A stretch of DNA of 64,000 bases from a virus. The notes under the pieces were generated by a model, which made no database searches, was not told the DNA's origin, and saw only the letters and a program-made list of their open reading frames with translations. The stretch is from positions 1 through 64,000 of the IMG/VR virus record IMGVR_UViG_3300027746_000644; one strand, written 5' to 3'. Below, one piece after another: positions 5,291 to 21,640 of this stretch. The stretch's first letter is position 1; each line of letters starts with the position of its first letter. Made by a program: the position numbers and the translations under genes.

Positions 5291-6132
5291 TGGCACAACA
5301 CACACATTACTGGAGTTGTACTCCGTTTGCAGACTGGCTTCGCGGCACTAAAAAACTCAGTGCAGGCACCGCTGAAGAATGGGACGACTGGACAACAGCC
5401 GCACAAATGAAACACAACTTTCGTTACTGGTTAGCCGAAGAAGGCCTAGGCTATATCCAGGATTTTGTCACATGGCCAATTAGAAAGATCTACGATGTTA
5501 AGTATTACATCAATAATCGCTGGGTTAGTCGTACTCACAGTCTCACCGCCCATGCTCGTGATATTAAGCCTGGTGCTTGGTGCGATGTTGGCAATCGGTT
5601 CCTGCCATGCCTATTTAATGAGTTGGTTGATTTCGTCGAAGTCGAATCCGCTTGGTCGCACATCGCCTGGGGAGATAAAGAAGCTCGTGCAAAGTATGAT
5701 CCTCCCTTTTGGGCTAGTGGTTGGTTCCGTTGGCGTACTTGGCGTTGTCCTCAGGCAGGCATCGATCATCTTGTCTGGGCAATGACTCTAACCAACACTG
5801 ACTGGTGTGAACCAGACGATCCAGAGTACGGCAAACCTACTGGCCAAGCAGAACGTGCAAAAGAAATCAAAGAGTTATACACATGGTGGACTGTGACCTA
5901 TCGCAATCGACCTGATCCATATGAAGCCAGCGGCTGGACCGAGTACTGTGAAGCTAGCCGGCTAGCAAACGGTGGCAAACTCAGTTGGTTGGGCAGTGAC
6001 AAGACTCCCGAGCTTAAAGCTATGAGCGATGCCTCACACAAAAAGTTACAAGAAATTGAATCAGCTTACGAAGCAGAAGACGAAGCCATGATGATTCGAC
6101 TGATCAAAGCCCGTGATAGTTTGTGGACATAA
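5290..6132 (+). CDS. tryptophan-rich conserved phage protein, unknown function
   Basis: A 280-residue protein unusually rich in Trp (for example WFRWRTWRCPQ and LYTWWTVTYRNRPD). It has a charged C-terminal helix (KKLQEIESAYEAEDEAMMI). No catalytic motif is clear. Trp and Arg clusters suggest binding to nucleic acid or carbohydrate, but this is a guess. The stop TAA shares a base with the ATG of the first radical SAM gene, so it sits at the boundary of the accessory island. A +1-frame hydrophobic ORF lies inside it (5495-5785). Confidence 0.6.
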   Translation: MAQHTHYWSCTPFADWLRGTKKLSAGTAEEWDDWTTAAQMKHNFRYWLAEEGLGYIQDFVTWPIRKIYDVKYYINNRWVSRTHSLTAHARDIKPGAWCDVGNRFLPCLFNELVDFVEVESAWSHIAWGDKEARAKYDPPFWASGWFRWRTWRCPQAGIDHLVWAMTLTNTDWCEPDDPEYGKPTGQAERAKEIKELYTWWTVTYRNRPDPYEASGWTEYCEASRLANGGKLSWLGSDKTPELKAMSDASHKKLQEIESAYEAEDEAMMIRLIKARDSLWT

Positions 6133-7556
6133 TGCAATATAACAGGAATGTTAAAGGTAACGGTCTTAGGAAAATAAACGGCAGATACGAATCTAGGTAC
6201 TTACACGACTCTGAGTTTGTGTTTAATAAACTTAATGAAGTAAGTCCTAGTTTTTGTCTTGCTAAATGGTTCAATGTTAGCATACATTTACCTACTGGAA
6301 AAACACACAGTTGCTATCATCCAGATGCTCATGCAATTCCATTAGAAGAAATTAAAATTGATGTTAGTGCATTACATAACACTAATTATAAAAAAGAGCA
6401 ACGTAAATTAATGCTTGATGGCACACGCCCTAGCGAGTGCAAATTTTGTTGGCAAATTGAAGACAGCGGTGACAACCTAAGTGATCGAGCATATCGTAGT
6501 AAAGATGTCTACGAAGAAGGACTTATAGAAGAAGCGCAGACATTATCATTTACTGGCAATGCTAAACCTCGATATGTTGAAGTTAATTTTAACCAAGCCT
6601 GTAATTTTAAATGTAGCTATTGCAGTCCGCATTTGAGCACAGCATGGATGGATGAAATACAAAAGCACGGCGCATTTATATTGGAAGATCGATGGCATAA
6701 CGACATGGCATGGATGAAGGCCAATATGCCCGACAATAGCCCAACCAATCCGTATGTTGTTGCATTTTGGGAATGGTTGCCACAAATTTATCCTACACTG
6801 CAAACCTTCCGTATGACCGGTGGTGAGCCATTGATGGACAAAAATACCTTCCGTATGTTTGATTATGTCAAAGAACATCCTAAGGAAGATTTGCATTTAA
6901 GCATTACCAGTAACTGTTGTCCACCAGGAGATCAATGGAACAAGTTTATGGTTAGTTTGAAAGAAATAACAGATAAAAATGCTGTAGATCATTTTATGTT
7001 ATTTTGTAGTTTAGACTCGTGGGGTGCTCAAGCAGAGTATATACGCAACGGTATGGATTTTGATTTGTTATATAGTAATGTTACGGATTATTTAGAAAAT
7101 AGCAGTAAGCACAGCATAACCTTTATTGTTACTTTTAATGCATTAAGTTATACTGGCTGGAATACATACATTAAAAACATTCTAGAATTGAGAAAACGAT
7201 TTAACACCACCCGACAGTTAGTATGGTTTGATGTTCCTCCACTGCATGATCCAGACTATCTTAATCCCAAATTAATTCCAGAACTAGTAGTTGAATTAGA
7301 AAAAAGTTTAGAATTTATGAAAGCCAATCCAGAAACTAGACATAATGAGTTTAAAGGATTTAGCGATTTTGAAGTTAGTAAAATACAACGCTTGATCGAT
7401 TGGATCAGATCTGAAACTGGGTTTAATCGAGCATTGGCCATGAAGAATTTTTATTTGTTTTTTAGCCAACATGATGTTCGACGTGGCACTGATTTTGTAA
7501 ATACGTTTCCTGAACTAGAAAATTTTTGGAAGGAATGTAAGAATAGTGCCATGTAA
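6132..7556 (+). CDS. radical SAM protein with N-terminal twitch-like Cys region (paralogue A)
   Basis: 474 residues from the ATG that overlaps the previous stop. The radical SAM cluster motif CNFKCSYC gives Cys157, Cys161 and Cys164, and GGEP (TGGEPLM) follows, as expected for SAM contact. Before the barrel there is a Cys-containing region with HSCYHP (Cys61) and CKFCW (Cys103/106), which resembles a half-SPASM (twitch) domain binding an auxiliary Fe-S cluster. Radical SAM enzymes cut SAM reductively to start difficult C-H chemistry; the substrate here is unknown. It is clearly paralogous to the protein at 8249-9643, sharing IKIDVSALHNT and KKEQRK. A second possible start is GTG at 6123. Confidence 0.85.
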   Translation: MQYNRNVKGNGLRKINGRYESRYLHDSEFVFNKLNEVSPSFCLAKWFNVSIHLPTGKTHSCYHPDAHAIPLEEIKIDVSALHNTNYKKEQRKLMLDGTRPSECKFCWQIEDSGDNLSDRAYRSKDVYEEGLIEEAQTLSFTGNAKPRYVEVNFNQACNFKCSYCSPHLSTAWMDEIQKHGAFILEDRWHNDMAWMKANMPDNSPTNPYVVAFWEWLPQIYPTLQTFRMTGGEPLMDKNTFRMFDYVKEHPKEDLHLSITSNCCPPGDQWNKFMVSLKEITDKNAVDHFMLFCSLDSWGAQAEYIRNGMDFDLLYSNVTDYLENSSKHSITFIVTFNALSYTGWNTYIKNILELRKRFNTTRQLVWFDVPPLHDPDYLNPKLIPELVVELEKSLEFMKANPETRHNEFKGFSDFEVSKIQRLIDWIRSETGFNRALAMKNFYLFFSQHDVRRGTDFVNTFPELENFWKECKNSAM

Positions 7557-8259
7557 ACTTTATATTTTTGGAGATAGTTTTTCAGTAAATTACGGACAGC
7601 CGTCTTTGATTCAGAGGTTTTTTGAAAAAACTACAATCTATGAACAACAACCGTCTTGGATACAGCAACTTTCTCAAAAATACAAAGTAAGGAATTTTTC
7701 TGAAGGCGGGTACAGTAACTCTCATATTTTTTTAAAATTTGTTGAAAATATAGATAGCATAACCAGCAACGATTTTGTTATTATTGGTTGGTCTGATGTA
7801 ACACGACCTTACGCAGATATAAAAATGACTCAGAAATTAAGAGAATTGTATATGGAATATTTTTACAGTCACAGGTTGCATAGAGAACACAGTAAAATGT
7901 ACATGAGCACGGTCAAAGAAATTCTTATCAAACGCAACATACCTCATTTGATTTTTTGGTCATTTCCTAGCTATTATGATAACGGTCCTTCGTGGACTTG
8001 TCGTGATCTAAATAACTTTGTTTACTGTGATGAGTTTGCAAATGAAATACGTCCTGCATTGATATATTTTTCAAGAATTGAATTAGATAGTAATCTCACT
8101 GTCCAGGAATATATTGAGTATATGGGTAACGATTCACGTCTTAATCATGTAGGCAACGCAACAGTTCATAACGAGTTATTCAAAATAGTAGTAGATGTGA
8201 TAGACGGAAAGTTATCCGGAATGATAGATTTAAAACAAAGGTTAGATAATGTCAAATAG
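7546..8259 (+). CDS. SGNH/GDSL-hydrolase-like protein (first copy)
   Basis: 237 residues from a GTG start at 7546, inside the 3' end of the radical SAM gene. The N-terminal strand and nucleophile motif is IFGDSFS (block I). NFSEGGYSNSH carries a possible block II Gly, and DSRLNHVGNATVH holds a candidate C-terminal catalytic His. SGNH hydrolases cleave acyl or acetyl esters, often on sugars, and phage versions are linked to glycan editing. Overlaps of 11 nt with both radical SAM neighbours indicate translational coupling, so it likely acts in the same pathway. Confidence 0.7.
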   Translation: MPCKLYIFGDSFSVNYGQPSLIQRFFEKTTIYEQQPSWIQQLSQKYKVRNFSEGGYSNSHIFLKFVENIDSITSNDFVIIGWSDVTRPYADIKMTQKLRELYMEYFYSHRLHREHSKMYMSTVKEILIKRNIPHLIFWSFPSYYDNGPSWTCRDLNNFVYCDEFANEIRPALIYFSRIELDSNLTVQEYIEYMGNDSRLNHVGNATVHNELFKIVVDVIDGKLSGMIDLKQRLDNVK

Positions 8260-9643
8260 TTATATGGATCGGGTCAAGTCCACACGAGATACGTTAAATG
8301 AAGTAGGACCGGGCTTCTGTCTAATGAAGTGGCGCAATGAAACCTTATACTTACACATGGGCGATAATCATAGTTGTTATCATCCACGACCACAGAAAAT
8401 TCCTCTAGCAGAAATTAAAATTGACGTTAGTGCATTACACAACACTAAGTGGAAAAAAGAACAACGTAAAACCATGTTAGAAGGTGGAAGACCTGAAGAA
8501 TGCTATTACTGTTGGAACATTGAGGACTTACAAGGTGAAAATTTTAGCGATAGAATGTTTCATAGTGCTAGCGGTTGGTTAGATGCTAAGAAAGAAACTG
8601 AATACATAAAATCTATTCCATGGGATACTAATGTCAATCCTATGTTCTTAGAAGTTAGTTTTGGCAATGGTTGCAATTTTAAATGCGGATATTGCTGTCC
8701 CCAAGCTAGTAGCTTATGGGTTGACGAAATTAAAAAACACGGTAACTACGATATAAGTTATAACCAATATGGCATCGAGTTTCTAGATCAAATGAAAGTG
8801 TATTCAGACGAAGAACCTAATCCGTACATTGATGCATTTTGGGAATGGTGGCCAAGCCTCAAACAAGATTTAAAAGTATTCCGGATAACGGGCGGGGAAC
8901 CATTAATTAATTCAAACACCTGGAAGCTATTAGATAAACTACGTATAGAACCAGTACCTGATCTAGAATTAAATCTTAATAGCAACATGGGTGTTAGCAA
9001 TGAGAAAGTTAAAAGGTTAAGCGAAACTGTTGATAAGTTATTAACAGAAAAACAAATTAAATCTTTTATGTTGTACACATCAATAGATGGCTGGGGCAGG
9101 CAAGCAGAGTACATGCGTCGAGGTTTAGATGTTGATCTTTGGGTAAAGAACTTAGAAACATTTTTAAACACTAATCCTGATTTCAAAGTTTCTTTTATGA
9201 TCACTTATAATATTTTAACTGTTGCTTCTTTTAGACCGTTATTAGAAAAAATATTAGAATTGCGTAAAAAATTTAACATTAACAACAATCGGATTAATTT
9301 TGATACACCATATCTTAAAGAACCTCCACACTGGATGATGAATTTGTTACCTGCAGAATTTGGCGCATACATTGATAAAGATTTAGACTTTATTAGAGAA
9401 AATATTACAAATAATTTTAATGGATTTGACGATCACGAGTATGAGAAATTAAAAAGAGTTAGAGATTATTTTTACGAAGGTGGTTCACGTATTACTCCAG
9501 AATTAGTTACTCAAGGTAGAATTGATTTTTATAAATTCTTTTCTGAATACGATTCTCGTAGCAATTTAAATCTAACAGAAACATTTCCGCTGTATGCAGA
9601 TTTTTATAATTTATGCAAGGACACGTATGAATCTAATCGATAA
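8249..9643 (+). CDS. radical SAM protein with N-terminal twitch-like Cys region (paralogue B)
   Basis: A 464-residue close relative of the protein at 6132. CNFKCGYC gives the cluster ligands Cys142, Cys146 and Cys149. TGGEPLI follows, and the N-terminal Cys region has HSCYHP and CYYCW. Shared segments (IKIDVSALHNT, KKEQRK, PYIDAFWEWWP versus PYVVAFWEWLP) indicate tandem duplication followed by separation by the SGNH gene. No C-terminal SPASM domain is seen. The reaction is unknown. Confidence 0.85.
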   Translation: MSNSYMDRVKSTRDTLNEVGPGFCLMKWRNETLYLHMGDNHSCYHPRPQKIPLAEIKIDVSALHNTKWKKEQRKTMLEGGRPEECYYCWNIEDLQGENFSDRMFHSASGWLDAKKETEYIKSIPWDTNVNPMFLEVSFGNGCNFKCGYCCPQASSLWVDEIKKHGNYDISYNQYGIEFLDQMKVYSDEEPNPYIDAFWEWWPSLKQDLKVFRITGGEPLINSNTWKLLDKLRIEPVPDLELNLNSNMGVSNEKVKRLSETVDKLLTEKQIKSFMLYTSIDGWGRQAEYMRRGLDVDLWVKNLETFLNTNPDFKVSFMITYNILTVASFRPLLEKILELRKKFNINNNRINFDTPYLKEPPHWMMNLLPAEFGAYIDKDLDFIRENITNNFNGFDDHEYEKLKRVRDYFYEGGSRITPELVTQGRIDFYKFFSEYDSRSNLNLTETFPLYADFYNLCKDTYESNR

Positions 9644-10826
9644 ACCTTTCTTCTGCGTGTTACCTTGGATTCATTTATATACAAATCCCGAAGGTAAAAT
9701 GTTGCCCTGTTGTGTTGCAGATAACTCCGCACCGTTTCCCATAATGTCTGAAGGTGAATTTCCAGTATTATTTAATAGTAAACCTATGAGAGAACTGAGA
9801 CAGAACATGTTAAATGATATTCCGTCAAAGACTTGTAATTATTGCTACAAGCTGGAAAAATACGGAACACATTCTCATCGTAAACATTCTAATGGCAAAT
9901 ACTTGTCTCATGATAATGTGCTTAAAATTATTGAAAATACCAATGACGACGGCACCATTGATGATATTAATATATTCTACTGGGATGTAAGATTTAGTAA
10001 TGTGTGTAACTATAAATGCAGAATGTGTGGGTCGCGTTACAGCACTAAATGGTATGAAGATGCTGACTTATTGGGCTGGAAAACAAACCCGAAAGATCCA
10101 ACTGTTAGTATTGCTAATATAAAGGAATTTTGCGATACTAATGCGTCTTATTTAAAAAGTATCAAATACATTTATTTTGCAGGCGGTGAGCCGTTAGTTC
10201 AGCCGGAGCACTACGAATTTTTAGACTGGTGTATTGAAAATAATGTAGATGCAGAATTATACTATCAAAGTAACGGCAGTATTTTAAAATATAGCAAGTA
10301 TGATATTTTTGATCTGTGGAGTAAATTCAAAAGAGTAACTTATAGTGTTTCATTAGATGGTCTAGGTGCCATGGGAGAATACATACGATCAGGATATAAT
10401 GATGCAAAAGTTGATAATAATTTAACTAAGATTTGCGAAGCATTTGGTTCTAACGAAGAAATAACAGTTAATGCAACCTTCATGGCTTACAATGCATTTT
10501 TTGCTATTGAATTTTTTGACCAAATGGAAAGCAAGCCGTGGGTTATGATGTCAAATGTTTATACTCAGTTGTTGATTGGTCCTGAACATTTACAACCTAA
10601 AGTATTACCTGTAGAATTAAAAAAACAAGCAATTGAAAAAATACTCAATTCTAAATGGTACGAAAAATATCCTAATAAATTTGAATCATTATTATCAAAT
10701 TTAAAAGAAGAGTCAACTCAAGAACTATGGAGTAAATTTAAACAATATACATTGGCTCTTGACGAACGTCGAAATGAAAATATACTAAATTATTTTTCAG
10801 AGTTAGGGCCTTACTATAATGACTAG
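9627..10826 (+). CDS. radical SAM protein with N-terminal twitch-like domain (third copy)
   Basis: 399 residues from ATG 9627, which has an aagga Shine-Dalgarno and lies 17 nt inside the preceding gene; an earlier in-frame ATG at 9594 lacks one. The N-terminal FFCVLPWIHLYTNPEGKMLP followed by CC is typical of twitch/SPASM half-domains, and KTCNYC follows. The radical SAM motif is CNYKCRMC (Cys127, Cys131, Cys134), with AGGEPL after it. It is less similar to the first two copies than they are to each other. It probably acts on a product or partner of the same pathway. Confidence 0.85.
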   Translation: MNLIDKPFFCVLPWIHLYTNPEGKMLPCCVADNSAPFPIMSEGEFPVLFNSKPMRELRQNMLNDIPSKTCNYCYKLEKYGTHSHRKHSNGKYLSHDNVLKIIENTNDDGTIDDINIFYWDVRFSNVCNYKCRMCGSRYSTKWYEDADLLGWKTNPKDPTVSIANIKEFCDTNASYLKSIKYIYFAGGEPLVQPEHYEFLDWCIENNVDAELYYQSNGSILKYSKYDIFDLWSKFKRVTYSVSLDGLGAMGEYIRSGYNDAKVDNNLTKICEAFGSNEEITVNATFMAYNAFFAIEFFDQMESKPWVMMSNVYTQLLIGPEHLQPKVLPVELKKQAIEKILNSKWYEKYPNKFESLLSNLKEESTQELWSKFKQYTLALDERRNENILNYFSELGPYYND

Positions 10827-12027
10827 ATGCATTAATGCAGAGCTTGGATTACGCATAAACACCGATGGCACTTGTAAACATTGTTGTATGCAAAAAGAAA
10901 ATTTAAAAAGTTCTGAAACTGGAAAAGAATTTAAAATTAGTTCTGATAAATTTATTGATATTTTATCAAGTAAACATTCAGTGGCGATACAAACCGATTT
11001 GAAAAACGGTATTCAACATCCTGCATGTTCTCTATGCTGGGAAGAAGAATCGTCGGGCAAAGACTCAAAACGAATTAGAGATAACAAGCAATATAATCAC
11101 TTGTTTGATTCTAATATAACTGCTCCTTCATTTTTAGATGTAAGTATGGGGACCACATGTAATATCAAATGTAGAACATGCGGGCCTTTTAATAGTAGTC
11201 AGTGGAATGATGAATGGCAAGCGGCTGGGTACTTTAAAGGCACTACTGACAAATATAAAATAATGTTGCAATCGTTTAATCACAGTTTTGATGACGATAG
11301 CTTATTTTGGAGTGAATTTGAAAACAATATAGGAAACATTACACATATTGACTTTTACGGTGGCGAGCCGTTTCTAGTTAAAAAGCAGTGGGATCTTATG
11401 AAGTCAGCGGTTGCTACCGGAATTGCTAAAAATATCACAGTGCATTACAATACTAATGGAACTGTATGGGATGACGACAAAGTTGATATATTAAAACACT
11501 TTAAAGCAGTTAATATTGATTTTAGTATAGATGGTATCTATGATAAACTTACTTACATACGGTATCCAGCAGATTGGAACACAGTATTTGGTAACTATTT
11601 AAAGTTACAAGAAATAGAAAAGAAATATCCAAACTTTCATTCTTCTGTTTGTTGTACAGTGAGTACATTTAACATATACGATATAGATGAAATAATGGAA
11701 TTCTTTAGTCGATATACAAAAAATTTATATTTAAATTTAGTACATGGTCCGGAACATCATTGCATTAAGAATATTCCAGAGTCGTTAAAACAAAAGATAA
11801 CTGATAAGTTAAAAAATACAGTAAAAAAAGATTGGGCTGGATATTATACCTTTGCTAGTACTATAGAATTTATGAACGGTACTGCATGCCATATGCCTAA
11901 ATGGGATAAATTTCTAAAAACAACGCTCTGGCACGACCAATATCGTCAACAAGATTTTAAAGAAACTTTTCCCAAGTTTTATAAATTAATAAAAGAAGAA
12001 AATTATGAAATATCTATGGAAAGATAG
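10819..12027 (+). CDS. radical SAM protein with N-terminal twitch-like domain (fourth copy)
   Basis: A 402-residue protein with RINTDGTCKHCCMQ and CSLCWEEE in the N-terminal half, giving auxiliary-cluster Cys candidates 4, 19, 22, 23, 70 and 73. The radical SAM motif CNIKCRTC is at Cys114, Cys118 and Cys121, and YGGEPFL follows. The start overlaps the upstream stop by 8 nt. Layout matches the third copy, and the substrate is unknown. A run of four proteins with the same domain order is unusual in a phage. Confidence 0.85.
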   Translation: MTRCINAELGLRINTDGTCKHCCMQKENLKSSETGKEFKISSDKFIDILSSKHSVAIQTDLKNGIQHPACSLCWEEESSGKDSKRIRDNKQYNHLFDSNITAPSFLDVSMGTTCNIKCRTCGPFNSSQWNDEWQAAGYFKGTTDKYKIMLQSFNHSFDDDSLFWSEFENNIGNITHIDFYGGEPFLVKKQWDLMKSAVATGIAKNITVHYNTNGTVWDDDKVDILKHFKAVNIDFSIDGIYDKLTYIRYPADWNTVFGNYLKLQEIEKKYPNFHSSVCCTVSTFNIYDIDEIMEFFSRYTKNLYLNLVHGPEHHCIKNIPESLKQKITDKLKNTVKKDWAGYYTFASTIEFMNGTACHMPKWDKFLKTTLWHDQYRQQDFKETFPKFYKLIKEENYEISMER

Positions 12028-13237
12028 TACAGTTAAATTATTGCATATTGAGCTTACAAACTTTTGCAATGCCGCATGTCCATTTTGTCCTCGATTTGTG
12101 GATGCTACTGATATCTTACGCCCTGATATTAATTTGGATCAAATGACCATTGAGCAGTTTAAAGAGTGGTTTCCAAAAGAAGTACTAATTGATGTTCATC
12201 GAATTTTATTCTGCGGCACACACGGCGATCCTATGATGGCTAGGGATTTGTTAGATATTGTTCGATACATACGAGAAACTGCTCCGCATTTAAATATCAT
12301 GTTTAATACAAATGGTGGCATGCGCAAGCCTGAATTTTGGAGTGAGCTAGGTAATTTATTAAAAGTCCATCCAGCTGGCAATGTTACATTCAGCATTGAC
12401 GGCTTGGAGGACACTAATCACCTATATCGACGAAATGTAAAATGGGACATACTCATTGATAATGTAAAAGCATACACAGATACTGGCGCAAATGCATCGT
12501 GGGATTTTTTAACCTTTAAACACAACGAACATCAACTACAAGAAGCAGAAGCTCTTTCAAAAGAACTAAAAATTAAAAACTTTTTAGTTAAACGTGCATT
12601 GGGATTTGAAGAAGGCGACGGCGGTTTTAAAGCCAGGGGCATATATGACAGAGACGGAAATCTTGATTACATTATAGAGCCGCCATCAGAACAAAGCCTA
12701 GTCAATGTTAATGAATATAAAGATGCTAAAAAATCAGTGTCGCAGACTATAAATCTTAGTTATTTAAAAACTATGAAAGAAACCAAAGTACATGCTGGAG
12801 TAACGGAAAAACTAGCAAATTTTTCTCACGAAAATGTTCCGCATTGGAACACGTATGTGCTGGAATACGATCATCACGAAATTAAATGTAAAAGTGATTG
12901 TTCAAAAAATAGTGAAAAAACATTAACAGAAGTTTATGTCAGTTGTCACGGTATAGTGTATCCATGTTGCTATGTAGGAACTCGTGTGGAAAGTTCGATA
13001 GATCTTTATGAAGATACACAATTACGGTATGCATTAAAAAATGCAGGCCTTGAAAATTTTAGCCTTAAAAAGAAGTCATTAAAAGATATTGTTAATGGCG
13101 GATTTTTAGATTCAGTGTTTACTGCATCTTGGGAGTTGCCGTCAACTAAAGACGGCAAGCTATCATACTGTGCTATGACTTGTGGCGAAAAAAGTCAAAT
13201 TGATAAAATTTATGTAAATCCAAAATGGAAATCTTGA
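12005..13237 (+). CDS. radical SAM/SPASM-type protein (fifth copy)
   Basis: 410 residues with the opposite layout to its neighbours. The radical SAM motif is at the very N-terminus (CNAACPFC: Cys21, Cys25, Cys28), and a Cys-rich C-terminal region follows (KCKSDC, VYVSCHGIVYPCCY, YCAMTC), typical of a SPASM or twitch auxiliary-cluster domain. The GGEP motif is replaced by CGTHGDPM. SPASM proteins often modify peptides or sugars. It overlaps the upstream gene by 23 nt and the downstream SGNH gene by 13 nt, which places it in the same operon. Confidence 0.85.
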   Translation: MKYLWKDSTVKLLHIELTNFCNAACPFCPRFVDATDILRPDINLDQMTIEQFKEWFPKEVLIDVHRILFCGTHGDPMMARDLLDIVRYIRETAPHLNIMFNTNGGMRKPEFWSELGNLLKVHPAGNVTFSIDGLEDTNHLYRRNVKWDILIDNVKAYTDTGANASWDFLTFKHNEHQLQEAEALSKELKIKNFLVKRALGFEEGDGGFKARGIYDRDGNLDYIIEPPSEQSLVNVNEYKDAKKSVSQTINLSYLKTMKETKVHAGVTEKLANFSHENVPHWNTYVLEYDHHEIKCKSDCSKNSEKTLTEVYVSCHGIVYPCCYVGTRVESSIDLYEDTQLRYALKNAGLENFSLKKKSLKDIVNGGFLDSVFTASWELPSTKDGKLSYCAMTCGEKSQIDKIYVNPKWKS

Positions 13238-14025
13238 ATAATATTAACAGAATAGTTGCATATGGGTGCAGTTACACAGCAGGCGATGAACTGCTAGATC
13301 ACGAAATTCTAGGAATGTCTTTTGATAATTGTAACAAGTTTAAAAAAAAATTTGCAACTGTTTTAGATTTCAATAACTATTCATTAAACGGCCAAACAAT
13401 ATTTAAATTAATAAAAAACGATGATCGTAATAGAGGTGTTTCATGGGCAGGTCAGCTGGCTAAATTATCCAGTAAAACATTTGAAAACAGAGCCATTGGA
13501 GGTTCTTCAATAGAGGAGCATTATTATTCAATAGTGCGAGATCTATCAAATAATCAAATTGTCCAAACAGATTTAGTATTAGTTGGTCTAACAATACCTG
13601 ATAGAATTTTTATATACCCCACCGGATCAGATAAACCACATTCCAAACTGTTATCAAATACATGGCAGTGGAGTGACCCTAAATTAAAAGAATACGCTGT
13701 TAATTATTTTTTTACAGATTTTTCGATTATTTTAAATTATTATAAAACATTGAAACTACTAAGCACTCTTAGTACTAAAATTAATATAAGAGTACAGCCC
13801 ATGCGACCTTCTGTGATTCCTGGGCATAACTTTTTTAAATACAAATCAGATATTTTAGAGTTGAACAACTATGTTAATACAGTGTGGCATGATTGCCAAA
13901 GTATTTTTATTGACTCCGATTACAATTCAACATTAACTGAAAATAGCGGCGACCTATGCGGGTTTGGTCATCAAAATGTACAGAGTCACATTAACTTAGC
14001 TGAAAAACTTTTAAAAAATTTATAA
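13225..14025 (+). CDS. SGNH/GDSL-hydrolase-like protein (second copy)
   Basis: 266 residues. Block I is YGCSYTAGDELL, with Ser as the likely nucleophile. NRAIGGSSIEEH fits the block II Gly, and CGFGHQNVQSHINLAEKLL near the C-terminus holds the candidate catalytic His. This order is usual for SGNH proteins in marine T4-like phages. It overlaps the SPASM gene by 13 nt. The codons are strikingly AT-rich, as in the next two genes. A role in deacylating a glycan made by the island is plausible but not shown. Confidence 0.7.
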   Translation: MEILNNINRIVAYGCSYTAGDELLDHEILGMSFDNCNKFKKKFATVLDFNNYSLNGQTIFKLIKNDDRNRGVSWAGQLAKLSSKTFENRAIGGSSIEEHYYSIVRDLSNNQIVQTDLVLVGLTIPDRIFIYPTGSDKPHSKLLSNTWQWSDPKLKEYAVNYFFTDFSIILNYYKTLKLLSTLSTKINIRVQPMRPSVIPGHNFFKYKSDILELNNYVNTVWHDCQSIFIDSDYNSTLTENSGDLCGFGHQNVQSHINLAEKLLKNL

Positions 14026-14026
14026 T

Positions 14027-15205
14027 ATGATTAATTTTATATTTCCAGATTATGATTATAATTTTTCAAAATATAATCTAAATTATAACACATTTACCAA
14101 AGAAAACCCGCACGACCCCTGGACATTAGAGTGGCTATTATATCAAAGTAACATAACATTTACTAAATCAATTACACCAAAAACTGATAATGATTATGTA
14201 TTGTTTAATCTAGCAGGGCCTGGAGATTATAGAGATTTTCAAAATGTGCCAGATAAAATTTGGGATTATATTAATCAACATGACAATGTAAATTTAATTT
14301 TATATCACGGCATTGAAGCAACTTCGCGCTCAGTGTACCAAAAACCTTGGAACAATTTAGAAATTATTCTACAAGAAAAAAATATATTACCTAACAAAGT
14401 ATTTTATATCACCGGTGATATCATTGCTCCGTTAAAATATAAACAAAGCAACAGTGATTATTTTTCAAAAATAAATGTATTAGGGTTGGATGTATTTGAA
14501 ATGATGCATATGCATCGCCATTTTAGAGCCTCGGGGTTTAATTTCTTAGAATCAATTGAGCAGTATTGCAGTCAAAAGAAAGAAAAAAAGTTTTTAAATT
14601 TAAACAACATCATGCGGCCGCATCGTCGTGCATTACTATTTTATCTTAAAAAAAATAATTTATTAGATGAAGGCTTTGTGAGTAGCCTTGAGTGGAGAAG
14701 TAATGGGATGGATAATGTGTGTAAGAATACATTTAACTTTCATTATAATTTTGATGATTCTGACTACGAAGATTTTTTAAAGATTAACGATACTATAATA
14801 ACATTAGATTCTCTTGGAAATCAAGCATCTGACAAAGAATTGTATATCAACAGCTATTACAGCCTTGTCACCGAGACACAAACATCAAAGGATTTGCTTT
14901 TCATAACAGAAAAGACTTACAAACCAATCTTAATGGGGCATCCGTTTATGATATTGGGATGTCCCAATTCACTATCATATCTTAAAAATAACGGATATTA
15001 TACCTTTCCGGAATTGTTTGACGAGTCTTACGATAGCTGTCTAATGGAGAAAGATCGATTAAAAATTATAATTGACAATTTAAAAAGAGATGTGGTCATA
15101 ACTGATGCAATTTATGAAAAACTAAAACATAACCAACGATTGTTTTTAAAGCAACCAACATTGCATACTAACAAACATAGTCTTATGCAGTTTCTTGTAA
15201 AGTGA
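14027..15205 (+). CDS. putative glycosyltransferase (GT10-like C-terminal motif)
   Basis: A 392-residue protein. The C-terminal third has SLVTETQ, FITEKTYKPILMGHPF and then DESYD, resembling the nucleotide-sugar-binding end of fucosyltransferase-type (GT10/GT-B) proteins, where YxTEK is followed by a small-residue loop. The N-terminal half is unlike anything I recognise. It follows the SGNH gene by one base and precedes a sugar-nucleotide pathway, so sugar transfer is a reasonable guess. Its 3' end overlaps a convergent - strand gene by 23 nt. Confidence 0.5.
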   Translation: MINFIFPDYDYNFSKYNLNYNTFTKENPHDPWTLEWLLYQSNITFTKSITPKTDNDYVLFNLAGPGDYRDFQNVPDKIWDYINQHDNVNLILYHGIEATSRSVYQKPWNNLEIILQEKNILPNKVFYITGDIIAPLKYKQSNSDYFSKINVLGLDVFEMMHMHRHFRASGFNFLESIEQYCSQKKEKKFLNLNNIMRPHRRALLFYLKKNNLLDEGFVSSLEWRSNGMDNVCKNTFNFHYNFDDSDYEDFLKINDTIITLDSLGNQASDKELYINSYYSLVTETQTSKDLLFITEKTYKPILMGHPFMILGCPNSLSYLKNNGYYTFPELFDESYDSCLMEKDRLKIIIDNLKRDVVITDAIYEKLKHNQRLFLKQPTLHTNKHSLMQFLVK

Positions 15206-16043
15206 TATTGATATGTGAGTTGGTAAAATCATCGCTAGACACTAGGGTTTTTATTAATTTTTTTTGATCAGTAGACAATGTGCCAATAGGAACAAAACCA
15301 ATTTTACCAGTATAATTGTCTTTTAACAACCATTCTTGAAAACGAGGATCCTTCCAAAAGTTTTTGAGATCGTCGTTATAATCAATGCAAACTCCGCAAT
15401 AACTGACATGGCAATTACTGATATCCCAACTGTTTGATGTATCTTCATTGAAATATGAAAAAAGAAAATCTTTGCCTGTTATATGTTTAATTGCATAAAC
15501 ATCTGCGTTCCAGGTAACTAAATCGCTATAAGGAACACAATCAATAATTGTAGTCTTATCTAAATTACTACACTGTAGTTCCAAGCAATTAATTTTTTGA
15601 TTACCCCATGCCTGTATAGTTGGATTTATGATGTATGGCTCCAGCATATGGCATTGATCGTTGATTTCATTTATTAGACTAAGAATATTATCATTAATTA
15701 AAACACGTTTTCCATAGAACGTTTTATGCTGAAACATATTTGTAAATATTCTATGCAGTATATTTGTATAATAGTTATAGCTTGTAATATCATAGGTTTC
15801 CGGAAGTTGCACAGTGTCAAGTTCATTTATTTCTGACAGTAATTTGTAATAAGCAGACCTTAACGCTTGCCAATGTGTGTCAACTTCTTTTTGATTCCAA
15901 TTATTATCAGCACAAGGCCATGTTTTTGGGATTATATCCCACCCTTTGACATTTGGCATTTTCTTAATGAGTTGATCTGTAAATCCGTTTGATATTATAT
16001 CAACTGATATACTCAAATTATTTAATTCTATAACTGCTTGCAT
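15183..16043 (-). CDS. conserved unknown protein on the opposite strand
   Basis: A 286-residue protein with an AT-rich gene and no motif I can assign. It contains scattered Cys residues (a CHVSYCGVC segment could bind a metal) and many Trp residues. It lies between the glycosyltransferase-like gene and the isochorismatase-like gene, but faces the other way. Its start is 14 nt from the next + strand ATG, with a TATAAATA box between them pointing to the + strand. Being within the island suggests a linked function, but nothing in the protein confirms it. Confidence 0.6.
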   Translation of the reverse strand: MQAVIELNNLSISVDIISNGFTDQLIKKMPNVKGWDIIPKTWPCADNNWNQKEVDTHWQALRSAYYKLLSEINELDTVQLPETYDITSYNYYTNILHRIFTNMFQHKTFYGKRVLINDNILSLINEINDQCHMLEPYIINPTIQAWGNQKINCLELQCSNLDKTTIIDCVPYSDLVTWNADVYAIKHITGKDFLFSYFNEDTSNSWDISNCHVSYCGVCIDYNDDLKNFWKDPRFQEWLLKDNYTGKIGFVPIGTLSTDQKKLIKTLVSSDDFTNSHINITLQETA

Positions 16044-16051
16044 TATAAATA
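16044..16051 (+). promoter_or_regulatory. late promoter TATAAATA
   Basis: An exact T4 late -10 box, 6 nt before the ATG at 16058. Since T4 late transcripts start about 6 nt past the box, the mRNA would be leaderless or nearly so. It separates the divergent genes at 15183-16043 and 16058. Confidence 0.65.
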
Positions 16052-16057
16052 CCCTGT

Positions 16058-16507
16058 ATGAAAAATTACTTAATTGTTGTCATGGATGTTGGAGATCCTG
16101 CATATTTAGATTCCTATAATGAGGATCTAGAAACCAATGATAAATTTATCTCTTATTTAAACGAAAAATTATTTTGGTTGGCAAAGAATGGCTCCACTAT
16201 AGTGTTTTCAAATTTTGTTGGAAAAACACACCCATTATTGACTATAGAGCCCGCCGAGCAAACAACATCGATAGACATTTTGGTAGATTTTATAAAAAAT
16301 AGAAATTTTGAAAAAATTGTCTATGTTGGATTACATTGGCCTGTGTGTAGCCATAACGGTAGATCAACCAGCAGTCATGCATTACAAGCAGTTACGAACA
16401 ATGACAACATATATGTTTGTCCTTTTTTAAGCAGGCCAGTGTACAAGTTGTACGGAGGAATTCCTCCGACTGATAACGATACAAAAATTAAACAAATTAT
16501 GTTATAG
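16058..16507 (+). CDS. possible isochorismatase-like cysteine hydrolase
   Basis: 149 residues. The N-terminal strand VVMDVGD resembles the catalytic-Asp strand of the isochorismatase-like family. KIVYVGLHWPVC (Cys about 108) resembles the strand and turn carrying the nucleophilic Cys. The spacing fits, but the sequences around these sites are far from classical members. It lies directly before a nucleotide-sugar dehydrogenase with 7 nt between, so it probably shares its transcript. The family call is tentative; a small Rossmann-like protein is the alternative. Confidence 0.45.
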   Translation: MKNYLIVVMDVGDPAYLDSYNEDLETNDKFISYLNEKLFWLAKNGSTIVFSNFVGKTHPLLTIEPAEQTTSIDILVDFIKNRNFEKIVYVGLHWPVCSHNGRSTSSHALQAVTNNDNIYVCPFLSRPVYKLYGGIPPTDNDTKIKQIML

Positions 16508-16514
16508 GAAAAAT

Positions 16515-17741
16515 ATGAAAGTAGCAATGATAGGGCTAGGAAAACTAGGATTGCCCTGTGCAGAAGTAATGGCCGAACACTATAGTGTTTGCGGATACGA
16601 TATCAATATTGTTGATCCCACAATTACTGTACAAATTAAAAAATCAATAGCAGAAGCAGTTGATACAGCACATTTTATTTTTGTAGCAGTTCCTACTCCA
16701 CACGACCCAGTCTATGGCGGCGGCACTCCAATTGCAGATTTGCCTCCTAAAGATTTTGATTACAGTATTGTTCAATCAGTACTAAATGAAATTAATCATT
16801 GTGTTAATAAAGAACAATTGGTAGTGCTCATTAGTACAGTGTTACCAGGAACAGTTAGAGAACATTTACAACCTTGTATCACCAATGCTAGGTTTATTTA
16901 CAATCCATACTTGATTGCCATGGGTAGTGTTAAATGGGACATGGTTAATCCTGAATGTTTGATTATTGGCACTGAGGATGGGTCCAGCACCAGCGATGCA
17001 AAATTGCTGGTGGATTTTTACAAGCCTATGATGAAAAATAATCCGCAGATCAATATTGGCACATGGGACGAAGCAGAAGCAATAAAAGTATTTTACAACA
17101 CATTTATTAGTGCTAAAATTGGGTTGGTTAACATGATCCAAGACGTTGCAGAAAAGAACGGCAATATCAATGTTGATGTGGTAACTGATGCACTTAAGAA
17201 TGCAACACAGCGTATTACAGGTCCAAAGTATTTAACAGCAGGCATGGGAGATGCTGGTGCATGTCATCCCCGAGATAATATTGCCTTGCGATATCTTGCT
17301 GAACGATTGGATTTGGGATATGATTTATTTCATACCTTCATGTCAAGTAGAGATCAACAGGCTAAGAATATGGCTCTTAAATTAGTAAGCCTAGCTAAAC
17401 AACATAACTTACCTGTAATAATTCATGGTCGTGCTTATAAGCCGTATGTAGAATATACCATCGGAAGTTACAGTGAACTAGTGGGACACTTTGTAGAGCA
17501 AGAAGGTATCAGTATTGCATATGCTGATCCATTAACTGGAGATGTTGCAAGCGGCCGTGCAGTAATATTGATGGCTCACAATCCAGCGGTGACCTATGCA
17601 GGCACTGGCGTAGAAATTAAACCTGAACAATTTTATTTTTATATTGAACCAGGCAGTGTTATTTTAGACCCGTGGCGCACTATAACAGATATTACAGGTT
17701 GTACAATCGTACACTACGGCAACACAAGGATTAAAAAATGA
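16515..17741 (+). CDS. UDP-glucose/GDP-mannose 6-dehydrogenase family protein
   Basis: 408 residues, the normal length. The NAD-binding loop GLGKLGLP is at 7-14, ISTVLPGT at 106-113, a conserved Lys at 201 (ISAKIG), and the catalytic Cys250 in DAGACHPRDN. In family members this Cys is followed by xxKD; here it is HPRD, a mild change at a substrate-contact site. The enzyme oxidises a nucleotide sugar to the uronic acid with two NAD+. It overlaps the cytidylyltransferase gene by 4 nt, which indicates a shared sugar pathway. Confidence 0.88.
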   Translation: MKVAMIGLGKLGLPCAEVMAEHYSVCGYDINIVDPTITVQIKKSIAEAVDTAHFIFVAVPTPHDPVYGGGTPIADLPPKDFDYSIVQSVLNEINHCVNKEQLVVLISTVLPGTVREHLQPCITNARFIYNPYLIAMGSVKWDMVNPECLIIGTEDGSSTSDAKLLVDFYKPMMKNNPQINIGTWDEAEAIKVFYNTFISAKIGLVNMIQDVAEKNGNINVDVVTDALKNATQRITGPKYLTAGMGDAGACHPRDNIALRYLAERLDLGYDLFHTFMSSRDQQAKNMALKLVSLAKQHNLPVIIHGRAYKPYVEYTIGSYSELVGHFVEQEGISIAYADPLTGDVASGRAVILMAHNPAVTYAGTGVEIKPEQFYFYIEPGSVILDPWRTITDITGCTIVHYGNTRIKK

Positions 17742-18496
17742 GAATAGTATTAGTGACTGGCGGATTTGATCCTTTGCATAGTGGGCATATAGAATATTTT
17801 GAGTCAGCAAAGAAATTAGGCAATATGCTTGTTGTTGGGATCAATACAGATGATTGGTTGGTTCGTAAAAAAGGGCAGGCCTTCTTGGATGAATACGAGC
17901 GTAGCCGAATTATTGAATCTCTTAAAGTTGTAGATAAAGTAGTTTGCTATCCTGACGCTGACGGTAGTAGTAAAAACACTATCACAGGTGTTAGAGCTAT
18001 GTATCCCGATGCTACTATTATTTTTGCCAACGGCGGAGACCGTACAAAAGAAAATATACCTGAGATGGACCTGATAGACAATAAACTAGAGTTTGTATTT
18101 GGTGTTGGTGGAGAAAACAAAGTTAATTCAAGTAGCTGGATATTACAAGAATGGAAAGCACCTAAAACTGAGCGGCCGTGGGGGTACTATCGTGTGCTTC
18201 ATGAAGTAAAAGGTACCAAAGTTAAAGAATTGACTATTGAGCCAGGTCAAAGTCTTAGTATGCAACGACACAAGTCTCGTAGCGAATACTGGCATGTTAC
18301 CAGTGGAACAGCAGTGGTGTGTTCTATGATGCCAAACGGTTATAGTTTACCCGCACTCAAATTAGAGACGCACTCAGATTACAAAGTACCAAAAAACGAT
18401 TGGCATCAGTTAACCAATCCGTTTGATGTTCCATGTAAATTGGTTGAAATTCAATTTGGCAAGTTGTGCAACGAGGAAGATATTGAGCGCAAATGA
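17738..18496 (+). CDS. cytidylyltransferase fused to mannose-6-phosphate-isomerase-type cupin
   Basis: 252 residues in two parts. Residues 1-135 are a nucleotidyltransferase of the cytidylyltransferase type (GGFDPLHSGH, with the HxGH motif at 14-17, as in TagD or RfaE). Residues about 142-245 match the type II phosphomannose isomerase cupin (RPWGYYRVL, EPGQSLSMQRHKSRSEYWHV, then a beta-barrel), with metal-binding His and Glu. Such fusions make an activated sugar or polyol. In E. coli the two activities belong to different pathways, so the fusion is notable. It is the last gene of the island. Confidence 0.85.
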   Translation: MRIVLVTGGFDPLHSGHIEYFESAKKLGNMLVVGINTDDWLVRKKGQAFLDEYERSRIIESLKVVDKVVCYPDADGSSKNTITGVRAMYPDATIIFANGGDRTKENIPEMDLIDNKLEFVFGVGGENKVNSSSWILQEWKAPKTERPWGYYRVLHEVKGTKVKELTIEPGQSLSMQRHKSRSEYWHVTSGTAVVCSMMPNGYSLPALKLETHSDYKVPKNDWHQLTNPFDVPCKLVEIQFGKLCNEEDIERK

Positions 18497-19809: not shown

Positions 19810-21021
19810 ATGACAACACAACAATTAACCGTACGAAACGATAGATTATGGGCAGATAGCAACCTAGATCTGTCTGCTGATCATGTTTATAAAATTGATA
19901 ACACACCTGTATTATCAGCTAACGAGCTTGGCCTTACTGTTACTAAAAGTAATCTGAGAGAAATTGGTACACTAAAAAGTTTAGAAGTATCGGGCACCAC
20001 AACTCTAGCAGAATTTGCACATTTTAACAGCTCAAACGGAAGACTAGGACTCGGCACTATAGATGCCAATGCCAGCATCAGTATTTTAGACAACGATGTT
20101 GAAATTGCTATCGGTAGTCCAGAGCCTGGCATTGCACATTTTGGAACTTATTCCACTAGCGATGTTGCTATTATCTCCGACAATATTCCACGCATACTTG
20201 TAAAAAGTAATGGTGAAGTAATTATCGGAAGTGAGGCTGGAAAAACTGGTGTGCTACGAGTGCATGGATCATTGCACGTTGATAATTTTGTTTCTGACAC
20301 AAGGGTTGAGCGTACTAGTTCGTTAGAATTTAAAGCCAACAGAGATGCTAGCATATATGGATTAGGTCTGTTATGGACTGCTGAACGCAACAATAAAGAA
20401 TTAATTATGCGGTCCGATCCTGATAGATTGTGGGCTAACACGTCTGTTGATTTAGAAGAACATAATGCATATTACATTAATGGAAGACCTGTACTAAGCG
20501 CGACCAATTTAGGAACAAGTGTTGTTAACAGTAATTTGATCACTGTGGGTCCATTGCAATCGTTAATAGTCACAGGCGACACTGTGTTACAAGGCGAGTT
20601 AGATGCCAGTTCAACCAATGCCAGCTTAAAATCACTTTTAATCAACAACGGCATTGACAGCGTTTCATTGAACGCCAGCGGCACCAACAGTAATAAAAAA
20701 TACAAGATTGCTATTAACGAAGAAGATGTATTCTACGCTAGTAATGACGAAATAATTATTGGTAATCCAAATTTTGGTCGTAGGTCAGTTAAGATATTTG
20801 GTCCAATTGCCACTACTTCAGATTTAACAGTTGATGGCGCCGTTACTTTAAACAACAAAAAGTTTACCAAAGGTGACCATGCACCAACCCAAGGACAATT
20901 CAACAAGGGCGACATTCAGTGGAATGAAAATCCAGTTGAAAGCGGTTATGTTGGTTGGGTATGCGTTGCATCTGGAACACCAGGACAGTGGTTACCATTT
21001 GGTGCTATTGCTCGCCAATAA
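19810..21021 (+). CDS. virion/tail-fibre-like protein with duplicated repeats
   Basis: 403 residues, rich in Ser, Asn, Thr and Gly with short beta strands, as in phage fibres. Two related segments are visible: LTVRNDRLWADSNLDLSADH with IDNTPVLSANELG, and LIMRSDPDRLWANTSVDLEE with INGRPVLSATNLG. These indicate an internal duplication of about 200 residues. The C-terminus (KFTKGDHAPTQGQFNKGDIQ, then YVGWVCVASGTPG) looks like a small adhesion-type tip domain. It is transcribed from a late promoter within a hairpin. A role in host binding or the baseplate appendage is inferred. Confidence 0.7.
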   Translation: MTTQQLTVRNDRLWADSNLDLSADHVYKIDNTPVLSANELGLTVTKSNLREIGTLKSLEVSGTTTLAEFAHFNSSNGRLGLGTIDANASISILDNDVEIAIGSPEPGIAHFGTYSTSDVAIISDNIPRILVKSNGEVIIGSEAGKTGVLRVHGSLHVDNFVSDTRVERTSSLEFKANRDASIYGLGLLWTAERNNKELIMRSDPDRLWANTSVDLEEHNAYYINGRPVLSATNLGTSVVNSNLITVGPLQSLIVTGDTVLQGELDASSTNASLKSLLINNGIDSVSLNASGTNSNKKYKIAINEEDVFYASNDEIIIGNPNFGRRSVKIFGPIATTSDLTVDGAVTLNNKKFTKGDHAPTQGQFNKGDIQWNENPVESGYVGWVCVASGTPGQWLPFGAIARQ

Positions 21022-21124: not shown

Positions 21125-21640
21125 ATGGCAAAATTTTACTCAACAAAAACTTACGGTAACGACAGAGGTTTATCCTGCTGTTTTAGACAATGGCGTGCCA
21201 GTCATAGCCACTGTTCAACACTACATGGTTACTCAATTGGTATCAAACTTATATTCGAGTGCGATACGTTAGATGACAAAAACTGGTGCATGGACTTTGG
21301 CGGACTCAAAGAATTCAAAGCATGGTCTGACAGCATGTTTGATCATACTCTAGTAGTTGCTGAAGACGATCCAATGTTGGATTTTTTCAAACACATGAAC
21401 GAGATAGTGGACATAGACAGCAAAGATCATCTGAGTAAACTTCCACATGAGCGCGGTGCCTTGTGTGATCTACGCATCGTACCCGGAGTAGGCTGTGAAA
21501 TGTTTGCCAAAATGGCATATGACAAAATGGCTGAACTATTGGCATCCGGCGATATGCGCTACCCAATTAATCCCACAGTAAGAGTTAAATCAGTTGAAGT
21601 ATTTGAACACGGTGCTAATTCGGCTACGTACGAAGGTTAA
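21125..21640 (+). CDS. 6-pyruvoyl-tetrahydropterin synthase / QueD family protein
   Basis: 171 residues. Zinc-site and core motifs are SHSHCSTLHGY and MDFGGLKEFK, followed by FDHTLVVAEDDP, as in QueD-like 6-carboxytetrahydropterin synthases. The usual HGH is HGY here, so one classical zinc ligand is replaced by Tyr; a preceding SHSH may compensate, and HGY may be normal for this phage subfamily. The enzyme acts early in 7-deazaguanine (queuosine or modified-DNA) synthesis. No other genes of that route are in the window, so it would depend on genes outside it or on the host. Confidence 0.85.
   Translation: MAKFYSTKTYGNDRGLSCCFRQWRASHSHCSTLHGYSIGIKLIFECDTLDDKNWCMDFGGLKEFKAWSDSMFDHTLVVAEDDPMLDFFKHMNEIVDIDSKDHLSKLPHERGALCDLRIVPGVGCEMFAKMAYDKMAELLASGDMRYPINPTVRVKSVEVFEHGANSATYEG

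Follow-up and report, generated by a model that had tools for sequence, protein, structure and literature searches.

A conserved viral gene block of N-terminal-twitch radical SAM enzymes and sugar-related genes, with a possible role in surface-glycan tailoring

The DNA analysed here (the window) comes from an uncultured aquatic phage and comprises the initial 64 kb of the record IMG/VR IMGVR_UViG_3300027746_000644 (G000; 94,399 bp). It carries at 6132–17741 a block of eleven genes, A–K, in which five radical S-adenosylmethionine (SAM) proteins are encoded together with sugar-related genes (Table 1). The same gene order recurs in divergent viral contigs and, judged from sequence comparison, the block is intact and actively maintained under strong purifying selection, the product of neither chance nor decay. 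This gives good support to the proposal of an earlier note on this DNA that the genes form an encoded pathway and are not stray. We consider it moderately probable that the block uses twitch-type radical SAM enzymes to make or tailor a surface glycan. This is the best reading of the gene company and of fold-level hints, and the suggestion of an unusual sugar or surface glycan in the earlier note is retained in that form.

Conservation of the block in viral relatives

A wider viral search returned 134 related viral stretches, and then relatives of A and C encoded in at least 598 viral contig stretches. The annotated viral set comprised 79 loci, with some contigs represented twice. Five loci found with D kept the order A-C-D-E-F-G-H-...-I(minus)-J-K, with identities of 62–81% for the radical SAM proteins and of 39–59% for G–K where the contig reaches that far; C was the most conserved member (81% in locus L001). 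The order in contig 3300032322_001460 (L078/L085) was exactly A B C D E F G H -I J K. Across the set, C was at most two genes away from A in 60/63 loci, and the gene directly upstream of A belonged to family c1 in 68/75. The gene order that had been put forward as worth searching was found in other contigs, with B optional and L peripheral. Additional genes of variant islands encode a NodU/CmcH-type carbamoyltransferase, a B12-type radical SAM protein with KedN5 as its nearest family, and more radical SAM proteins of the N_Twi_rSAM family described below.

Key residues were intact in 167/170 A/C, 29/29 D, 59/59 E and 63/63 F full-length copies (the three A/C exceptions are a single contig fetched three times). 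The C gene of contig 3300032050_008598 (L005, 751–2151) has a Cys-to-Phe change at the first radical SAM cluster ligand and is otherwise intact; no further decay was apparent among the copies examined. The ratio of nonsynonymous to synonymous substitution rates (dN/dS) was ~0.02–0.05 for radical SAM genes where divergence allows (L001 versus L003 or L085; L001 versus L002), reached 0.09–0.13 for D and F versus L085, and was 0.17–0.37 for G and H, looser than for the radical SAM genes. Neither of the outcomes that the earlier note had named as telling against a joint pathway, unlinked genes in related phages and decayed key residues, was seen.

Architecture of the radical SAM enzymes

A, C, D and E all exceeded the curated cut-off of 170 bits of NCBIfam family NF033640 (N_Twi_rSAM), with matches over the full family length. 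All five radical SAM proteins carry CX3CX2C, as had been noted before, together with a SAM-binding GGE-type motif. SPASM domains have been described by the signature CX9-15GX4C-gap-CX2CX5CX3C-gap-C, of which twitch is a shortened form (PMC6231123), and both are described as C-terminal extensions (PMC9012708). By contrast, in A, C, D and E a pattern C-X12/13-G-X4-C...CX2C, which fits the twitch form CX9-15GX4C...CX2C, precedes the radical SAM CX3CX2C; the layout in A is C42-X13-G-X4-C61 and C103/C106, with CNFKCSYC as the radical SAM motif. This N-terminal placement was seen in 167/170 A/C, 29/29 D and 59/59 E copies and in 90/90 bacterial A/C-like copies, and the four twitch Cys, the three radical SAM Cys and the GGE were invariant in 45 diverse A/C proteins. 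On D, the SPASM profile PF13186 was placed at residues 9–72, that is, N-terminally. The open reading frame lister placed the start of D at 9594; translation from the ATG at 9627, the preferred start, yields 399 amino acids, consistent with relatives. The auxiliary cluster of BtrN has four Cys ligands (PMC9012708) and, since the twitch Cys of A, C, D and E also number four, their auxiliary cluster is likely to be fully ligated and of redox type.

F stands apart, scoring 56.5 bits against NF033640, below its cut-off, and lacking the N-terminal twitch; it has a motif resembling the twitch on the C-terminal side instead. The radical SAM profile PF04055 matched F above cut-off (47 bits), and its CX3CX2C was kept in 63/63 relatives. 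PF13186 matched C-terminally below threshold (18.1 versus 21.5 bits), and the C-terminal Cys of F (295, 299, 314, 321, 322, 389, 393) do not form the seven-Cys SPASM motif, with no CX2CX5CX3C among them. The earlier description of four overlapping genes for N-terminal-twitch proteins and one for a C-terminal SPASM-like protein is therefore upheld, with the SPASM-like region of F being incomplete.

An AlphaFold (AF2) model of C had a mean predicted local distance difference test (pLDDT) score of 94. When this model was compared with the PDB using Foldseek, the radical SAM core alone was matched (BlsE, viperin, SuiB, AprD4 and EpeE; template modelling (TM) scores 0.3–0.5). Full-length matches were confined to uncultured tailed phages and the Vibrio phages phi-pp2 and KVP40. 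When profiles of A/C, D/E, F, G, H and J were searched against the PDB, generic radical SAM or chance matches alone resulted. In a FastTree phylogeny of A/C (local support only), most viral A and most viral C formed two separate clades among bacterial, mostly Bdellovibrionota, sequences, which indicates that A and C are old, distinct enzymes and not recent duplicates.

Companion genes, neighbouring modules and bacterial relatives

Genes A–H overlap their neighbours by 8–23 bases or abut them. B matched the GDSL profile PF13472 below its cut-off (E=0.09; 13.7 versus 32.9 bits); copies were found at the same place in L078/L085 (72% identity) and between A and C in other loci (32–39%). G had no Pfam match, hence no GDSL profile over cut-off, and its blocks GCSxTxGxE, GGT and GFGHxxxxxH, kept in 7 relatives, are suggestive of SGNH only. 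H had no match to Pfam or to a glycosyltransferase family 10 (GT10) profile. Its AF2 model, of medium confidence (pLDDT 75), found WaaG first in the PDB (Foldseek E=1.3e-4, TM ~0.44), and the top matches were nearly all GT-B enzymes, with an alpha-1,3-fucosyltransferase fifth and trehalose-6-phosphate synthase also matched. A motif SEKTYKP...HPF is conserved among H relatives. These results make H a probable GT-B glycosyltransferase on the strength of the model, with its earlier placement in GT10 unproved.

Table 1 Genes of the block and selected neighbours, in window coordinates.
Gene	Position	Strand	Product and remarks
A	6132-7556	+	474 aa N-terminal-twitch radical SAM protein; ATG 6132, GTG 6123 possible; NF033640 310 bits
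B	7546-8259	+	SGNH/GDSL-like protein; optional insert between A and C
C	8249-9643	+	464 aa N-terminal-twitch radical SAM protein; NF033640 300 bits
D	9627-10826	+	399 aa N-terminal-twitch radical SAM protein; NF033640 352 bits
E	10819-12027	+	402 aa N-terminal-twitch radical SAM protein; NF033640 293 bits
F	12005-13237	+	410 aa radical SAM protein; C-terminal incomplete SPASM-like Cys region
G	13225-14025	+	266 aa SGNH-like protein; conserved motif blocks
H	14027-15205	+	392 aa probable GT-B glycosyltransferase; AF2 model and Foldseek
I	15183-16043	-	286 aa conserved protein, no function assigned
J	16058-16507	+	149 aa conserved small protein, no function assigned
K	16515-17741	+	408 aa UDP-glucose/GDP-mannose dehydrogenase-family enzyme; PF03721 and PF00984
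L	17738-18496	+	cytidylyltransferase-like and mannose-6-phosphate-isomerase-type cupin fusion; PF01467 and PF01050
Tail-fibre-type gene	19810-21021	+	PHROGs virion structural, tail fiber, short tail fiber
3290-aa tail fibre protein	24443-34315	+	phrog_9851 tail fiber E=2.5e-41

The sugar dehydrogenase assignment of K was borne out: both Pfam profiles exceeded their cut-offs, TIGR03026 matched with E=1e-42 and phrog_9148 was also matched, and the catalytic Cys of its GxCHPRDN motif was kept in all 7 distinct relatives. Outside the window, G000 encodes a second UDP-glucose-dehydrogenase-family gene and a Gfo/Idh/MocA-type oxidoreductase (67854–68627 and 71377–72261). In L, PF01467 (CTP_transf_like) and PF01050 (ManC-type cupin) were both over cut-off, which confirms the reported fusion; L lies adjacent to but outside the conserved block, with a single homologue (51%, L070) among the fetched viral loci. 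The first account of the island had overlooked I, J and a tail-fibre/glycosyltransferase module at the contig's other end. I occupies the same place and strand in L001, L010 and L078 (35–41% identity), and copies of J 37–46% identical stand at the same place in relatives. J has no Pfam or PDB relative, and a candidate assignment of J as an isochorismatase-like hydrolase was rejected for want of Pfam or PDB support.

The gene order directly before the block in relatives was c8/c3 (tail-fibre type), c7, c6, c4, c9, c1 c1. The genes c7-c6-c4 were contiguous in 47/47 loci, with c3/c8 directly upstream in at least 38/47, and c1 (DxD) appeared glycosyltransferase-like and c4 and c6 (DxD) glycosyltransferase-8 (GT8)-like by eye. 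Searches of cultured phages with c1, c4 and c7 found none. In G000 the same module lies at 89,045–94,397 on the minus strand, ~25–30 kb outside the window, where it adjoins the c12/c11/c13–c17 genes that flank K in relatives. With the module remote from A–K and joined to K-flanking genes, the simplest account is that A–K were relocated as one unit in this lineage, taking the majority arrangement as ancestral. A tail-fibre-type gene is now 1.3 kb away from the block, and the gene of the 3290-aa tail fibre 7 kb away; a c8-family match within that fibre (33848–34312) corresponds to the fibre-type gene beside the island in relatives. The long fibre gene makes up about a tenth of the known genome. 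A QueD family match (21125–21640) and, by sequence, a QueE-like protein (G000 80608–81465) suggest 7-deazaguanine chemistry in this phage.

The clamp loader of the phage was at most 56.5% identical to those of jumbo Pseudomonas phages, with T4-like phages also matched, and no nucleotide-level match to cultured phages was found. No tRNAs were found, nor any RNA families in the region, and 3 copies of the T4-type late promoter motif TATAAATA were counted in the window against 5.7 expected, an uninformative result.

Bacterial A/C relatives were missed by a single-sequence scan of bacterial genomes and required an alignment for detection. Most titles of 67 genome-collection loci name Bdellovibrionota; several other genome-collection loci have their genes in the order seen in phages and probably represent phage contigs that were binned into metagenome-assembled genomes. 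Five Bdellovibrionota-type genomes held 6–33 NF033640 matches each, in one case about 15 within 30 kb. Large N_Twi_rSAM islands mixed with glycan-type genes were observed in Bdellovibrionota at L269/L270 (G002 C1, 740–780 kb), L271/L272 (G005 C9) and L273/L274 (G004 C6). An amidinotransferase suggested by eye in a bacterial island had no Pfam match. Among cultured phages, relatives of A, D and F were only ~24% identical and no H relatives were found. The cultured Vibrio phage K566 (L268, OZ196521.1) carries at 7974–15713 two N_Twi_rSAM genes over cut-off and a third just below, with one further radical SAM gene and two GT8 genes.

Glycan tailoring, its alternatives and known systems

Several lines of evidence point towards a glycan-tailoring role for A–K. 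Five constrained radical SAM genes are co-inherited with a nucleoside-diphosphate (NDP)-sugar dehydrogenase, a probable GT-B glycosyltransferase and SGNH-like genes; the tail-fibre/glycosyltransferase module, which this phage also holds elsewhere, immediately precedes the block in relatives; and variant cassettes bring in B12-type radical SAM proteins and carbamoyltransferases. Some bacterial homologues belong to polysaccharide-type loci that contain ABC-2 exporters, GT2, a DegT aminotransferase and an NDP-sugar epimerase, and one genome has a c1 homologue near A/C. Vibrio phage K566 likewise clusters N_Twi_rSAM genes with two GT8 genes, and the sugar-chemistry enzymes BlsE and AprD4 are among the best PDB core matches. 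In such a pathway, K would oxidise an NDP-hexose, perhaps yielding a uronate. The four enzymes A, C, D and E would act on the sugar or glycan using a 5'-deoxyadenosyl radical and their N-terminal four-Cys auxiliary cluster with BtrN-like ligands, and could oxidise, epimerise, dehydrate or decarboxylate positions on it. F would carry out a further radical step, G and B may add or remove acyl groups, and H with the remote glycosyltransferase-like c1, c4 and c6 would attach the product. The finished glycan might be placed on the host surface, the view taken of pelagimyophage glycosyltransferases (PMC7029224), where altered receptors would act against superinfection, or it might be placed on virion fibres.

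Other observations weigh against glycan tailoring. The fold matches of C are limited to the radical SAM core and include the peptide enzymes SuiB and EpeE as well as viperin. No Pfam match was obtained for c1, c4 or c6, so their glycosyltransferase nature is read from sequence motifs, and the assignment of B and G as the two SGNH proteins first proposed is plausible but weak, the motif blocks of G favouring it and the profile results for both genes not. Several other bacterial copies adjoin unrelated housekeeping or chemotaxis genes. Directly after an A/C-type gene of Halobacteriovorax marinus come genes for PqqD and for a small S74-domain protein; two further Bacteriovoracaceae genomes have PqqD and S74 no more than 8 kb from A/C-type genes, and another genome has a PqqD gene 0.3 kb from an N_Twi_rSAM gene. 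This company points to a polypeptide substrate in those bacteria, so that the bacterial family is not exclusively about sugars. PqqD was seen beside a ~150-aa S74 (endosialidase chaperone) protein with the motif EVLNxSxYLDVFAGSD at L173:11364–12210, L164:2070–2845 and L166:2123–2882, and the pair near A/C-type genes is possibly an unrecognised peptide-modification system.

A more tentative idea is that the radical SAM enzymes are directed at the virion itself, whose adhesive fibres would become a chemically modified adhesin by way of an unusual sugar or of a radical modification of the fibre polypeptide. On this view a related radical SAM family would serve surface structures in predatory Bdellovibrionota; if true, it would amount to virus-encoded radical chemistry on a virion part. 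It appears unlikely that the enzymes modify a polypeptide, for instance the tail fibre of the phage or some small substrate, as do SPASM/twitch maturases of ribosomally synthesised and post-translationally modified peptides (RiPPs), with glycosyltransferases decorating it afterwards. Most known SPASM radical SAM enzymes do have peptides as substrates (PMC9012708), tail-fibre-type genes lie beside the module, and PqqD, the recognition element of RiPP systems, and S74 genes lie near bacterial A/C-type genes; yet neither PqqD nor the S74 domain was found in 12 island-bearing phage records, the overlapping or abutting A–H genes offer no space for a precursor-peptide gene, and the company of sugar enzymes is strong.

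Twitch/SPASM enzymes also make cofactors, as with MoaA and PqqE (PMC9012708), and the phage has QueD and a QueE-like gene for 7-deazaguanine chemistry, but the block is linked with genes of tail-fibre and glycosyltransferase type and not with those for replication or nucleotides. A product that has nothing to do with surface glycans, be it a metabolite, a cofactor or a DNA modification, seems quite improbable. Anti-defence or viperin-like nucleotide chemistry would accord with weak viperin-profile matches (25–30 bits) and with viperin among the Foldseek core matches; these scores are far under the NF038283 cut-off of 180 bits and disfavour it, as do four paralogues with an N-terminal twitch and the linkage to sugar genes, and we hold it very improbable. 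Phage hypervariable regions gather foreign genes (PMC7029224), and island GC content (0.30–0.37) is below that of the flanks (~0.41), but a chance pile-up of host-derived genes with no joint function is refuted by the gene order shared among divergent contigs, by the relocation as one unit and by strong purifying selection, and has almost no credence left.

Should glycan tailoring prove to be correct, radical sugar chemistry of several steps would be encoded by aquatic phages. It would be a source of new enzymes and possibly a new layer of phage–host recognition or superinfection exclusion. Because family members occur in Bdellovibrionota chromosomes and in the cultured Vibrio phages K566 and KVP40, their function is open to testing. 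The analysis defines one phage radical SAM family by its N-terminal twitch architecture, gene order and partners. The database gives NF033640, to which A, C, D and E belong, no assigned function; compared with that entry, four paralogues and F here form one conserved operon with sugar genes. Among radical SAM enzymes of aminoglycoside and nucleoside sugars (BtrN, AprD4 and BlsE), BtrN shares the four-Cys twitch ligand pattern of A, C, D and E (PMC6231123, PMC9012708), but known twitch domains are C-terminal (PMC9012708), whereas that of the island is N-terminal, and the low TM-scores to BlsE and AprD4 mean that no shared reaction can be claimed.

Among phages, mycobacteriophages decorate virion proteins with phage-encoded glycosyltransferases and, unlike in the island, no radical SAM step figures in that work as cited (Freeman 2023, cited in PMC12619734). 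The environmental genome TARA_ERS488813_N000010 of a T4-like marine virus has a similar density of radical SAM genes, 12 in all, interpreted as Fe-S metabolism and not as a glycan pathway (PMC5332604). In pelagimyophages, a variable host recognition cluster thought by its authors to alter the host O-chain holds radical SAM cassettes together with genes for tail fibres, glycosyltransferases, rfaE and UDP-glucose 6-dehydrogenase; the cassettes receive a mention only, with nothing on their family, gene order, conservation or mechanism, and were absent from the freshwater members studied (PMC7029224). The virulent, T4-related Campylobacter phages CP220 and CPt10 have interchangeable five-gene radical SAM clusters, a number termed 'highly unusual', which also carry a putative glycine amidinotransferase and were read as host-fitness genes (PMC2853527); F alone is similar to them, at 24% over 46% of its length. 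None of the papers covered by the literature search described this cassette or Bdellovibrio radical SAM islands. Dense phage radical SAM cassettes, noted since 2010 without mechanism, are already known; the linkage and breadth of this one look new.

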